From Gammaproteobacteria bacterium (GTDB taxonomy: Bacteria > Pseudomonadota > Gammaproteobacteria > Xanthomonadales > Marinicellaceae): DNA of 44,168 nt. Positions within the stretch are counted from its first letter, which is position 1, and the number at the start of each line of letters is the position of its first letter. The stretch covers positions 1 to 44,168 of the forward strand of contig JAUIGR010000020.1 of assembly GCA_030430025.1 (NCBI GenBank), in the 5' to 3' direction. Positions 23,054-33,338 of the stretch are shown here, in pieces. The position numbers and the translations under genes are program-made. The notes below the pieces were generated by a model that saw only the letters and a program-made list of their open reading frames with translations, did not search any database and was not told the origin of the DNA.

Positions 23054-26000
23054 GTGGAAAAGCATAAATATCATTGGAGTTTTAGACTTTGGGTCAAACT
23101 TCGTGGAACACTGGCTGTGATGGCGGTGCTAGCGGGTTTATTGGTGGGTATATTCAGCTTGATACTGCCATTTGATCAGCTTTACAAGGATCGGTTAATA
23201 TCTTTTTTAGAAGAGCAATGGAGAGTCTCTGTTGCTGTCCAAGAGGTAGAGGGTTCTTGGCGTGGCTATGGACCTCATTTTCAGCTGAATAATTTGACAC
23301 TCAGTGGTAAACAAGACATCCATATTGCTGAAACGACATTGGCTATTAATGTCTATGAATACTTGATTCCAGGAGGTAAAACTGGCATTGACTTAAAAAT
23401 CAGTCAAGCCGATTTGGCGATGATACATTCCGAAGATGGGCCAAATTTTACCGTTAATAATGAGCAAGATGGGCAATCTTTCACTGAAACTTTGGATAAG
23501 ATTCTCACCTCAGGTGCATTAGAAGTGAGTGCCCTGCAAGTCAATGTTATGAATGATCAAGGTCTTCTATTATTAGAAGGCCTTAAAGCAGGTTTTTTAT
23601 TGGAACAGGATGATAATAACCGAGCTATGTCCTTAACCATCGGTCATGAAGATGCTTTTCTACAAATCAACGGTTTGGGAGGAAAACAAGATTTATTAAG
23701 TAAAAATGCCGAGTGGCATATGACCATGCATCAATTTAATTTGGCTGAGTTTAATGAGCTTCAAGAAGTGGTGACACTGCCATCGACTATTCTCAATGGC
23801 CAAATATGGATTCATACAGATGATGGTGTTATCAATAAGGCAAGTGGATCGATACAATGGGAAATGTTGGGGATGAGTGGGATAGTTCACTGGCAACATC
23901 AAGGTGACAATCAGAACTGGTCTAGTTGGCTTAAATTGGATAATCTAACATCCGTTGAGACATCATACCCTGATGTCAATGGAATGCTTCAAAGGTCTGG
24001 AGAAAGCATCTATTTTGTTGCAGATCAGGTTTCTTTGTCTGCTTTAGCCACTATTCTTGAGGAAAGAACTGGATATTCGTTTGATGCGCAAGGCGAATTA
24101 AAAGAGATCGAGGCAAGGTATGATTTAGAAAAAAAACAGTGGCAAGAAGCCACTGCCGCATTTAACTTAGCTAATTTAGTCATTAATGACATATCAGCCA
24201 GTCAACTATCGGGACAATTAGCCTATTTGGATGATCAATGGCGCTTTTTTTTAGATAGTGCACAAGGTCAACTGACCATACCTTCAGTATTCAGAGGACA
24301 ACTAAAATGGGAGACACTGTTAGCTCAATTGACTGTTTCTCATTCAGTGAACTGGCGTGTTATGTTGAATGATTTTTGGTGTGACTGTGAAAATTTTGAG
24401 GCTGAAGCGCAAATGCAGCTATGGCAACAAGGTGCTGAACAGGCGCCACGTATGCAGCTCCAAGCTCGTGTTCATGATGTGACTGTTGCTGAATTACATC
24501 ATTATTGGCCTTATCGAGTATGGAAGCCCAAAACCATTCAGTGGTTAGATGAGTCATTGCTTTCTGGTCAAGTGCCTATTGGATATTTATTTTATCAAGG
24601 ACAATTAGTAGATGAAGCGTTTAATAATGGTTTGGCATTTTTTAATTCTAGGGCAGAGTTAGAAAATTTAAGTGTTGAATTCCATCCCCAGTGGCCAGTA
24701 GTGAATGACTTGAGTGGCACTGCATACTTTACAGGTAATGGTTTTGAGACCCATGTGGACAGTGCATATTCAAAAGAATTAGATATTTTCTCAACAACGG
24801 TTAATATGCCTTCTTATAAGCAAGGTATGTTAACTGTTGAACTATCTGCACAGTCAGAAGGCAATGAATTGCTGTCTTATTTGAATAAAACGCCAATTAT
24901 TCGAACCATACCTCTAGATGATAAATTGACTCTGTCAGGAAAACAAAAAATTGATACCGCTATAGATATTTCAGTTAAAGATGAGCATGAATTAAGGCCA
25001 TATGGTCAGATTTGGTTCGAAGACGCTGGATTGGAAACAGTGCATTTATCGTTGTCTAAAATGAATGGCAATGTTGCTTTAGATGGTTATGAATTGAAAA
25101 TTAAAAAACTATCAGCTGAGTTGATCGGTCAAGGAGTCAGTCTGGATGGTACTGTGAAAATGAAAACAGACCATGGTTTGTCCATTGATATTGGTGTTAA
25201 TGGAGACCTTGAGGTATCTGATATATTATTTGATCAAGGGTTACACTTACCTATATCAGGTGAGTCACATTGGAATATTGGCATTAAATCAGAGCAGCAA
25301 CAATTGTTAATGTCATTACATTCTGATTTAAAAGGTACTGAGATAGGGCTACCAGCGCCTTTAAATAAAAGTCATGCATCGGTACAACCCTTTTCATTAA
25401 ATTGTTATGTTCCATGTAGGGAATCTGACATTCATATGAAATATAGTGATGAGATTGATGTCAAATTGACTGCTACTGACTCGGGTTGGGCTATTAAGTC
25501 CTTGATTTTTGGTGAAGTTGTCAATGAGTCTTCGAAACATTCTGTGCTGGGAGGGCAAATTACCCAGTTGGATATAGACAATTGGCTCAAATGGGTTAAA
25601 AAATGGAGTCTTGAAAGCAGCGACTTGAATGAGTGGCAGTTACCTGCATCTTCATTTGAACTAGAGGTCACAGATATGCTGTTTTTGGCAAGACATTTTA
25701 AAGAGGTTAAACTCGCTGTTGAACGTTTAGAAGATAAATATCATGTGGTTATTGACAATAGCGATATGAAAGGTATGTTAGAGGTGGCTGATAATTTAGC
25801 AACTAAAGGAGTGGTTGCTGATTTTGAATATTTACATTGGAAAGAAGCTGATATAGAGGATATAAGCACAGTAACTGATGATGTTGAGCAGATGCCAGAT
25901 CTTCATGTATATGCTCAACAATTCAGTTATTTAGATATTCCGTTAGGTAGTTTGCGATTGGAGCTAAGGAATGTTATAGATGGAAGTCAGGTTGAACAAA

Positions 26001-26707
26001 TGTCATTGACCTCGGATACCAGTAATATACAAGTGACAGGCCATTGGCGAGCGCCTGAGGTAGGTGATACTGGTTTAGGTGTGTCCAATTTTAATGTCGT
26101 TATGACTTCAGAAAAGTTTGCAGAGTTTTTGGAAGGTATGTCTTTTGATGCGCCGATAAGTAACACCCAAACTTTAATAGAGCTTAATGCGCAGTGGCCT
26201 GGCACACCCAGTATGTTTGATTTAAAAAATATTTCAGGCACATTAGATCTCACTATGGGAGAAGGGGAGGTTTTAGATACCAAACCAGGATTTGGTAGGG
26301 TTTTGGGTTTGTTCAGTCTAACCGATTTACCCAGACGATTGATGTTGGATTTTAAAGATGTCATTGCTGAAGACTTACACTTTAAATCGATGGAAGGACA
26401 CTTTAATATTGCCGATGGTTTTGCCACTACGGATGATTTTACAATCAATGCTTCATCGGTAAAAATAATGGTTCGAGGAGAAACAAATTTTGCTCAAAAA
26501 ACATATAATCAGACCATTACGGTGGAGCCGCAAGTAGGAAAAACATTGCCAACTATTGGCGCCATAGCCGGTGGTGCTGTAGGTGCAGCAGCAGGATTTT
26601 TCCTACAAGGTATCTTTAATAAACAGTTAAAGTCTTCTAATAGAATTATGTACCATGTGACAGGAACATGGGACCAGCCAATTATTGAATTATTGAATGA
26701 TGAGTAA
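23054..26707 (+). CDS. yhdP: YhdP-family AsmA-like phospholipid transport protein
   Basis: A very large envelope protein: an N-terminal inner-membrane helix (about residues 17-38) followed by a long beta-rich periplasmic part and an AsmA-like C-terminal region (around 1060-1217), as in E. coli YhdP. In E. coli YhdP, with TamB and YdbH, moves phospholipids from the inner to the outer membrane. The 1217 aa length fits. The start is a GTG at 23054, which overlaps the stop of an 18-codon upstream ORF (TAGTG). It follows rng by 85 bases. Its last 11 bases overlap the start of a PqiA-like gene, so those two are translationally coupled, an arrangement not present in E. coli. Confidence 0.9.
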   Translation: MEKHKYHWSFRLWVKLRGTLAVMAVLAGLLVGIFSLILPFDQLYKDRLISFLEEQWRVSVAVQEVEGSWRGYGPHFQLNNLTLSGKQDIHIAETTLAINVYEYLIPGGKTGIDLKISQADLAMIHSEDGPNFTVNNEQDGQSFTETLDKILTSGALEVSALQVNVMNDQGLLLLEGLKAGFLLEQDDNNRAMSLTIGHEDAFLQINGLGGKQDLLSKNAEWHMTMHQFNLAEFNELQEVVTLPSTILNGQIWIHTDDGVINKASGSIQWEMLGMSGIVHWQHQGDNQNWSSWLKLDNLTSVETSYPDVNGMLQRSGESIYFVADQVSLSALATILEERTGYSFDAQGELKEIEARYDLEKKQWQEATAAFNLANLVINDISASQLSGQLAYLDDQWRFFLDSAQGQLTIPSVFRGQLKWETLLAQLTVSHSVNWRVMLNDFWCDCENFEAEAQMQLWQQGAEQAPRMQLQARVHDVTVAELHHYWPYRVWKPKTIQWLDESLLSGQVPIGYLFYQGQLVDEAFNNGLAFFNSRAELENLSVEFHPQWPVVNDLSGTAYFTGNGFETHVDSAYSKELDIFSTTVNMPSYKQGMLTVELSAQSEGNELLSYLNKTPIIRTIPLDDKLTLSGKQKIDTAIDISVKDEHELRPYGQIWFEDAGLETVHLSLSKMNGNVALDGYELKIKKLSAELIGQGVSLDGTVKMKTDHGLSIDIGVNGDLEVSDILFDQGLHLPISGESHWNIGIKSEQQQLLMSLHSDLKGTEIGLPAPLNKSHASVQPFSLNCYVPCRESDIHMKYSDEIDVKLTATDSGWAIKSLIFGEVVNESSKHSVLGGQITQLDIDNWLKWVKKWSLESSDLNEWQLPASSFELEVTDMLFLARHFKEVKLAVERLEDKYHVVIDNSDMKGMLEVADNLATKGVVADFEYLHWKEADIEDISTVTDDVEQMPDLHVYAQQFSYLDIPLGSLRLELRNVIDGSQVEQMSLTSDTSNIQVTGHWRAPEVGDTGLGVSNFNVVMTSEKFAEFLEGMSFDAPISNTQTLIELNAQWPGTPSMFDLKNISGTLDLTMGEGEVLDTKPGFGRVLGLFSLTDLPRRLMLDFKDVIAEDLHFKSMEGHFNIADGFATTDDFTINASSVKIMVRGETNFAQKTYNQTITVEPQVGKTLPTIGAIAGGAVGAAAGFFLQGIFNKQLKSSNRIMYHVTGTWDQPIIELLNDE

Positions 26708-27533
26708 AACATTTGGACACATTTTATATATGCTTGTCTGTGCCATTTTTTGTGTTTACTTGGCTTATCAGGCTTGGGGTTATTCTATGGCTTATGAGTA
26801 TCAGATTAGTGAGTTATCAGCACAATTAGATGCCAGCAGTAACGCTAAGAGTAAGGGTAAAAAGATATTGGAAGCGATTACTTTTAGTTGGTATGAAGGC
26901 TATACCGAAGAACTTGAACGATTGGAGGAAAGTAAACAGCGAGCTGAACATTTAGATAAATTGGCCAATAAACATACTAAATTGTTTATTGCTTGTTTGA
27001 TATTGATGTTGCTTTTACATGGTTTCCTTCGGTCAATTTGGTCATTAGCGGCATTGTTAATTGCGATAACCACCGCGTTAATTACTGGATGGTTTGCTCC
27101 TATTCTGGCAATTATAGCTTATCAAGATGTACCCGTATTGGGTCAAACGGTGTTCCAGTTTGAGTCGAAAAGTATTGTTTCTGCTTTAGCAAAAATGTAT
27201 CAGAGTGGACAAATAGCGATTGCTACAGTGATTTTCTTATTTACCATATTGGTACCAGTATTAAAAACTTTTTTAAAAACCATGATATTGGTCAGTAATA
27301 ATCTTCATTTTTCGAAAAAAACCATTAGGGTTCTCAAGGCCGTCGGTAAATGGTCAATGCTGGATGTGTTTGTGATTGCGATACTGGTCACTTATTTTTC
27401 GACTAAGTCTGGTGGTGCAACTGATGCCACATTACAAATTGGCGTTTATTTTTTTACCGCTTATGTCGTTGCTGCGATGATTTTAACAACTTTAATTAAT
27501 GGATTTACCAATGATAAACACAACAGTCTGTGA
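26697..27533 (+). CDS. PqiA-domain inner-membrane protein inserted between yhdP and tldD
   Basis: The 278-aa protein has an N-terminal membrane helix (about residues 8-26), a charged helical stretch (35-92), and then about five hydrophobic segments (around 95-111, 114-140, 172-195, 223-240, 250-270). The block [17 protein letters not shown] and the earlier [10 protein letters not shown] are the signature of a paraquat-inducible protein A domain. Canonical PqiA/LetA has two such domains and partners MCE proteins in lipid transport; this one has a single domain plus a novel N-terminus and no MCE gene nearby. Start candidates ATG 26697 and 26700 both overlap the yhdP end. The end overlaps tldD. 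Placement suggests it works with YhdP, but that is inference. Confidence 0.8.
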
Positions 27534-32924: not shown

Positions 32925-33338
32925 TCACCATACGTAAATGGTCTCTGCATCTATTAATGGATGGCTATAAGGATGGTTATTGATGTTCTTTGTTACTACT
33001 TTTTTCACATGCCCAATGACTGTGACTGGTTTATTTTTTATAGAAGCAGGATCTAAGAATTGTGGCTTACAAGCGATGAATCGACCCGTATCCATCCGAT
33101 ATTGTCTCGATGGTTTGGCGTAGGCGTCAGCTAATTTGCCAATAATAATCAGGCAACTATAATCCTTTTGGTTTTCCACATCAACCACAAAGCCAGTCCA
33201 TCTGATTTTGAGATCAGCAATAGGATTTTGAATATAATTTTTTGGTGTCATATCAATGAAGTCGCCCTGTAGTGGCTTTGGAGGTTGAGCACAAGAAAAT
33301 AGGGTTAAAGTACAGCAGATGATAATAATCGTTTTCAT
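32925..33338 (-). CDS. Slp-family outer-membrane lipoprotein
   Basis: The 137-aa product has a lipoprotein signal peptide ending in the lipobox LFSC (residues 13-16), so it is acylated at C16; the residue after it is Ala, compatible with outer-membrane sorting. The mature part RWTGFVVDVENQKDYSCLIIIGKLAD and GRFIACKPQFLDPASI...VTVIGHV matches the pattern of the starvation/acid-inducible Slp family. Slp proteins are of uncertain function, linked to outer-membrane stress and stationary phase. It is oriented opposite to both neighbours, converging on the GT9 gene and diverging from carA, so it has its own promoter in 33339-33510. The homologue is shorter than E. coli Slp (188 aa). Confidence 0.75.
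   Translation of the reverse strand: MKTIIIICCTLTLFSCAQPPKPLQGDFIDMTPKNYIQNPIADLKIRWTGFVVDVENQKDYSCLIIIGKLADAYAKPSRQYRMDTGRFIACKPQFLDPASIKNKPVTVIGHVKKVVTKNINNHPYSHPLIDAETIYVW

Follow-up and report, generated by a model that had tools for sequence, protein, structure and literature searches.

We analysed a stretch of 44,168 nucleotides from a gammaproteobacterium of the marine family Marinicellaceae (assembly GCA_030430025.1, contig JAUIGR010000020.1, positions 1 to 44,168; hereafter the window). In this stretch yhdP, which encodes a periplasmic lipid bridge of AsmA type that presumably brings lipids to the outer membrane, is followed directly by a gene for a single-domain PqiA/LetA-family protein with an N-terminal helical hairpin. 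We observed that yhdP and the PqiA-like gene are a real, conserved and lineage-specific pair. On balance we favour the view that in Marinicellaceae the PqiA-like protein partners YhdP at the inner membrane, in a complex of whatever role. Within this claim, the narrower proposal that it loads or gates phospholipids for YhdP is a tentative one, to which we give less than an even chance.

Both genes are located on the forward strand. The yhdP gene (23054-26707, GTG start) encodes 1217 amino acids, and its product matches PF13116 (E 4.8e-166) over profile positions 3-1224 of 1224, that is, over the full length. The NCBIfam model TIGR02099 gave a score of 463, below its cut-off of 519, therefore we regard the protein as a divergent YhdP. 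The PqiA-like gene (26697-27533) encodes 278 amino acids with a PF04403 match (E 1.8e-19; 70.6 bits, cut-off 23.8). Since this match covers residues 145-266 only, the protein is a single-domain member of the family, as the initial annotation had described it. Two NCBIfam PqiA models matched it weakly, both below their cut-offs. Two ATG codons in a row (26697 and 26700) precede the TAA stop of yhdP (26705-26707), so that the genes overlap by 11 bases (26697-26707), or by 8 with the second ATG as start; the 11-base overlap first noted for this pair was thus confirmed, with the shorter one as its variant. The next gene, tldD, begins at 27499 and overlaps the end of the PqiA-like open reading frame (ORF) at 27533. 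The PqiA-like gene behind yhdP is the sole PqiA-family match in the genome of the window.

The PqiA-like protein was detected in 32 of the 33 genomes of the family. Its gene and yhdP were adjacent, on the same strand and on one contig in 30 of the 33, as judged by eye from the match coordinates of both genes. In two genomes (G013, G015) the contig ended at the PqiA-like gene and the pair was cut off. The last one (G001, two contigs, assigned by its label to a different genus within the family) had neither a PqiA-like match nor a full yhdP. It contained a partial YhdP-like ORF (L185, G001:C1:1170000-1180000; PF13116 E 8.5e-17, profile positions 442-838) near a tyrosyl-tRNA synthetase gene. As the neighbourhood of this ORF is unlike that in other members, we did not count the genome as a case of co-loss; its placing in the family, or its yhdP, may be odd.

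Further, we compared 30 named family loci, which come from largely the same species as the 33 genomes. Upstream sequence was available for 28 of them, and in all 28 the upstream ORF was YhdP. The ATG start of the PqiA-like gene was placed 1-11 bases inside the end of yhdP in 22 of these 28 loci. In the other six it was at 0, +2 or +36 or, in three loci of a third genus, at least 9 bases behind yhdP, depending on the start chosen. Directly behind the PqiA-like gene we observed tldD in 16 of the 30 loci, and it was retained there only in the genus of the window. In the other 14 no tldD was found within the 325 to 10,000 bases examined, and the next ORF was a different one or was on the opposite strand. 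Since the downstream ORF varies, the conserved block ends with the PqiA-like gene in these 14 loci. The gene is tied to yhdP rather than to tldD, and the pair is a trait of the family. In a phylogenetic tree, which carries a long-branch warning (L073 and L081 included), 23 Marinicellaceae rows were on one side of a branch with support 100/98, and 31 Campylobacterota rows were on another branch (99/95).

We also compared 20 YhdP proteins of Marinicellaceae with 20 from other gammaproteobacteria. No sequence match to YhdP was found among solved structures. In a predicted structure of the window protein (residues 1-1199; mean predicted local distance difference test score, pLDDT, 76.2, with the first 180 residues mostly under 70), an anchor helix at residues 6-37 is followed by beta strands up to residue 1159 and a helix at 1164-1187. 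The anchor, which would lie in the inner membrane, is encoded at 23069-23164 (+) and contains Gly28-x3-Gly32 (23135-23149). GxxxG is a common helix-packing motif. It was present in the anchor of 20/20 Marinicellaceae proteins and in 2/20 of the others (Gly28, 20/20 and 0/20; Gly32, 20/20 and 6/20), while arginine at position 35 was found in 0/20 and 14/20, respectively. Pairs of proteins were also compared at equal identity of the core (residues 391-1199; bins 0.30-0.35 and 0.35-0.40). Agreement over residues 1-130 was 0.41 in both bins for the family, versus 0.29 and 0.33 for the other gammaproteobacteria. The order was reversed for residues 131-390 (0.20 and 0.22 for the family versus 0.24 and 0.28). 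Above a core identity of 0.40 the other gammaproteobacteria gave 3 pairs only, with N-terminal/core ratios of 1.04-1.10, nearer to those of the family (1.09-1.38). Judged from the alignments, the anchor of YhdP is changed in Marinicellaceae and its inner-membrane end is unusually conserved.

The PqiA-like protein was modelled with AlphaFold2 from an alignment of 55 rows (mean pLDDT 74.7, predicted template modelling score 0.74). The model consists of two long helices (residues 2-61 and 68-111) and a PqiA domain with strands at 137-145, 149-158 and 242-246. The part of the hairpin that would project into the periplasm corresponds to residues 30-95 (26784-26981, +), with a conserved tip at 55-70. 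The hairpin loop (30-94) has 9 basic and 12 acidic residues, and the loop at 197-219 has 5 basic and no acidic ones. Hydropathy and charges fit an N terminus on the inside, so that the hairpin would stand in the periplasm, with some 30 residues per arm. Among 17 family proteins the mean majority fraction was 0.81 at the tip, 0.54 and 0.56 in the arms and 0.73 in the PqiA domain; outside that domain no part is better conserved than the tip. The initial annotation had called the N-terminal helix and coil new, but they are common to homologues from Campylobacterota and from four other gammaproteobacteria.

The PqiA domain (residues 145-266; 27129-27494, +) was aligned with Escherichia coli LetA (PDB 9n8w). 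Lys190 (27264-27266) and Asp223 (27363-27365) are invariant in all 55 aligned proteins and correspond to Lys328 and Asp367 of LetA, which we take to be core residues with a role in that protein. LetA residues were numbered with an offset of 18, derived from the sequence and structure alignments. LetA was the best PDB match of the model (Foldseek E 4.2e-4) and the only PDB sequence match up to E 1 (E 1.5e-16). Structural alignment with LetA residues 260-418 covered 155 residues at 3.5 Å with Z 12.3, compared with about 9 for TARP subunits, and helical bundles reach middling Z values by chance. Structural matches of the helices to STAT proteins were rejected as a chance likeness of long helices. 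Zinc-ribbon parts are a feature of LetA and PqiA proteins; CxxC was absent from 55/55 rows of the hairpin type. The protein has a single PqiA domain and not two in tandem.

These observations suggest how such a complex could be built. The LetA-type transmembrane domain would sit beside the anchor helix of YhdP, and the hairpin would extend into the periplasm and hold the inner-membrane end of the bridge. In the role that we favour, the domain would extract phospholipids or gate them into the groove of YhdP, as is thought for LetA and LetB. The pair would thus place an ATPase-free inner-membrane part on an AsmA-type bridge. We infer the physical contact with YhdP, the loading of lipid and the direction of its flow. 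The initial annotation had proposed that the gene may supply lipids to YhdP. This proposal gains from the linkage with yhdP, from the lack of a multi-MCE bridge among the profile matches, from the LetA-like fold with its lysine and aspartate and from the changed anchor; it has to be narrowed, as the protein is not a general subunit of YhdP and the role would be carried over by analogy from the PqiA family.

Outside Marinicellaceae the two genes were found apart. In a sample of 184 genomes of the class, PqiA-family matches were present in 62 (one of them, G236, below the PqiA cut-off) and YhdP matches in 168. Positions of both genes were listed for 58 of the 62; G233 and G301 had no yhdP match, and G223 and G295 had a yhdP match without a listed position. 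Compared by eye, in a way that would miss a pair split between contigs, only the genome of the window had the two genes side by side. Regarding how often the insertion occurs, it is a family trait that is seen once among 58 comparable genomes of the class sample. Of 369 class genomes, 5 had the hairpin type itself, the four besides that of the window being G227, G345, G286 and G418. Three further candidates, G210 (28-271), G172 (67-274) and G209 (98-274), were rejected because their matches cross a stop and their frames have 162-199 amino acids. Hairpin-type proteins also occur in Campylobacterota (Sulfurovum, Nitratifractor and relatives; loci L063-L097 and L112, for example L064:9929-10807 and L066:9974-10807) among the best 80 of 350 homologues.

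The remaining 50 loci (L063-L112) were searched for a neighbouring yhdP in flanks that extend up to 10 kilobases and are in several cases cut at a contig end; the family YhdP profile matched in 0/50. As this profile had missed two PF13116-positive Campylobacterota genomes, flank proteins were additionally scanned with Pfam. No YhdP, AsmA or MCE family was present among the matches of 29 flank proteins from 19 loci, a set that includes the larger ORFs though not every large one, and 3 of the 29 had no match at all. In L103 the PqiA gene is preceded by a large ORF, yhdP-like by size, which was found to be a flavin adenine dinucleotide/iron-sulphur protein. The initial annotation had raised the question whether the insertion tracks with yhdP. 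It does so in 30 of the 33 family genomes, and this fails for the hairpin type outside the family, so that separation from yhdP is seen in distant relatives and not in close ones.

Two loci of the hairpin type, L117:4085-4963 and L119:3644-4549, belong to two genomes of one gammaproteobacterial genus and are near a DUF1223 gene (PF06764 in L117). Their neighbours also include what we read as rsmD- and coaD-like genes. Short single-domain PqiA genes (about 150-220 amino acids) were common in Gammaproteobacteria (class sample, L114-L132) and had varied neighbours. No obvious MCE gene was seen beside them by eye in 19 regions, where ORF calls were poor in G+C-rich parts.

The order of yhdP followed directly by tldD, which the initial annotation had taken as reference, is of limited reach in the class. 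Among 20 regions from other gammaproteobacteria (L163-L182), tldD was found within about 4 kilobases behind yhdP in 8, and in 5 of these 8 a nitrilase-like motif (QMASG) was located between the two genes. This motif was present behind yhdP in 11 of the 20 regions, and one such ORF matched PF00795. We know of no link of a nitrilase-like gene with YhdP, and we found no literature on a yhdP operon with a nitrilase in a search that left most subscription journals outside.

An inner-membrane partnership with YhdP has to be weighed against partners of other kinds. PqiA and LetA are described as ATPase-free components of MCE bridges in the inner membrane (PMC12436622), and an MCE match was found in each of the 33 family genomes. 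The PqiA-like protein might thus serve in trans a single-domain, Mla-like MCE system encoded elsewhere. We consider this improbable. With G001 set aside, the matches in the 32 family genomes were to single-domain MCE proteins only (open frames of 231-346 amino acids, two of them in G014); profile matches gave no PqiB/LetB-like multi-MCE protein in any of them, and the MCE match was on a different contig from the PqiA-like gene in 32/32. The only MCE locus found in the genome of the window (L113:3798-7202, -) encodes an auxiliary lipoprotein (PF03886), a single-MCE protein, an ABC ATPase, an MlaE permease and a STAS protein; it thus has its own ATPase and permease, and no PqiA ORF was found there above the inclusion threshold. 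Among relatives, too, no hairpin-type gene was observed beside an MCE gene, an arrangement that would have spoken against the proposal of the initial annotation. In the four other gammaproteobacteria the MCE gene was on another contig or hundreds of kilobases away. In 6/6 Campylobacterota genomes the three-MCE genes, to which this comparison is confined, were on contigs that differ in length from that of the hairpin gene. Directly upstream of the three-MCE gene there were PqiA-family ORFs, two in five regions and one in a region cut by the contig end, therefore the hairpin type is a further PqiA protein in these bacteria. Cys-rich ribbon motifs were present in these MCE-linked ORFs in 5 of the 6 regions, the sixth being cut at a contig end, and are absent from the hairpin type. 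An MCE partner of the family protein is unlikely on these observations. Service to TldD, for which the overlapping ORFs of the window and the 16 loci with tldD directly behind could speak, has in our estimate hardly any chance, given that the remaining 14 loci showed no tldD in the downstream stretch available.

The partnership with YhdP is weakest on two counts: the linkage has a single origin, since Marinicellaceae are one lineage, and the hairpin type exists elsewhere without an adjacent yhdP. The genes of this type in Campylobacterota and in the four other gammaproteobacteria have varied neighbours. These four genomes match the family YhdP profile with yhdP elsewhere in the genome, so that the two genes are at least unlinked there. 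PF13116 matched in only 2 of 6 Campylobacterota genomes and the family profile in 0/6, which argues against hairpin-type PqiA as a general subunit of YhdP. In many other gammaproteobacteria the nitrilase-like gene occupies the position behind yhdP. The comparison of YhdP proteins is supporting and not proof, because its pairs are interdependent and all family members come from a single lineage. The model of the PqiA-like protein is weak at the hairpin tip (pLDDT 54-56, residues 51-70) and at residues 144-150 (below 50). Position 260, aligned with LetA Thr402, presumably a position with a role, is serine in 54 of 55 proteins and alanine in that of the window. Several of these points would fit a stand-alone membrane protein with a part in envelope stress, membrane order or lipid scrambling. 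Its gene would have come to lie behind yhdP a single time, in the family ancestor, and the overlap would do no more than couple its expression to the maf-rng-yhdP operon. The short PqiA genes of the class, with no obvious MCE gene in the 19 regions, would fit it as well. We consider such a protein unlikely, though it is the most serious of the alternatives: wherever the family locus is assembled, the gene has kept its place behind yhdP despite a changed downstream gene, and the YhdP anchor is altered in the same family. A part of the partnership claim itself, somewhat less probable still, is a protein that handles no lipid and whose role is to regulate, localise or stabilise the bridge. The hairpin could act as a tether, and a different sort of inner-membrane partner, DedD, is described for E. 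coli YhdP (PMC12977461). The lysine and aspartate shared with LetA and kept in 55/55 proteins would, however, be needless for a mere tether.

Upstream of yhdP the window contains maf and rng (ribonuclease G), a run common in gammaproteobacteria, and before them two ORFs that we read as rsfS and rlmH. A gene of an Slp-family outer-membrane lipoprotein (PF03843) was found at 32925-33338 on the reverse strand. A scan gave 17 promoter-like sites versus 20.6 in shuffled sequences, and 10 terminator-like sites versus 3.7, all of the latter within yhdP or tldD and none inside or behind the PqiA-like gene; we did not use the scan as evidence.

To our knowledge no route, driver or gate is established for the entry of lipids into YhdP, TamB and YdbH. 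If the partnership is true, a LetA-type protein welded to yhdP is a candidate loader of the bridge, and the two genes form a system that can be transferred to a laboratory strain and tested. The MCE and AsmA classes of bridge would then be joined through a common inner-membrane part. That both of these major types of lipid bridge in the periplasm rely on the same sort of motor or gate is a possibility that we regard as worth holding, at rather less than even odds.

As of 2021 YhdP was without a known partner (PMC8593681), and DedD has since been found as one. In E. coli the partners of AsmA-type bridges named in PMC12977461 are DedD for YhdP, and TamA for TamB and YnbE for YdbH, the latter two in the outer membrane. 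The literature search described above gave nothing that joins PqiA-type proteins to YhdP. The PqiA-like protein would resemble DedD as a partner on the inner-membrane side of YhdP, but DedD is a cell division protein that binds the cell wall and not a relative of lipid transporters. The systems TamB-TamA and YdbH-YnbE likewise combine an AsmA-type bridge with a partner, which, unlike the PqiA-like protein, is in the outer membrane.

Among PqiA-type proteins, the closest known relative in structure is LetA (YebS) of E. coli, which works with LetB. It has in common with the PqiA-like protein the transmembrane fold, the WSMLD motif and the aligned lysine and aspartate. The PqiA-like protein differs from it in having one domain and not two, no CxxC, a hairpin in front and a gene adjacent to yhdP, and in contrast to LetA-LetB no multi-MCE protein was found in Marinicellaceae. 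PqiA of PqiABC belongs to the same PF04403 family, with the NCBIfam PqiA models matching below cut-off only; the PqiA-like gene is not beside pqiB- or pqiC-like genes, and the other differences are those given for LetA. The Campylobacterota ORFs beside PqiB-like three-MCE proteins likewise have one PqiA domain per protein, but they have Cys-rich motifs and an adjoining MCE gene, and the hairpin type has neither. The hairpin-type proteins of Sulfurovum, Nitratifractor and the four other gammaproteobacteria have the same two-part layout, with 23-31 percent identity over the alignment, and unlike those of Marinicellaceae they were not seen beside yhdP.

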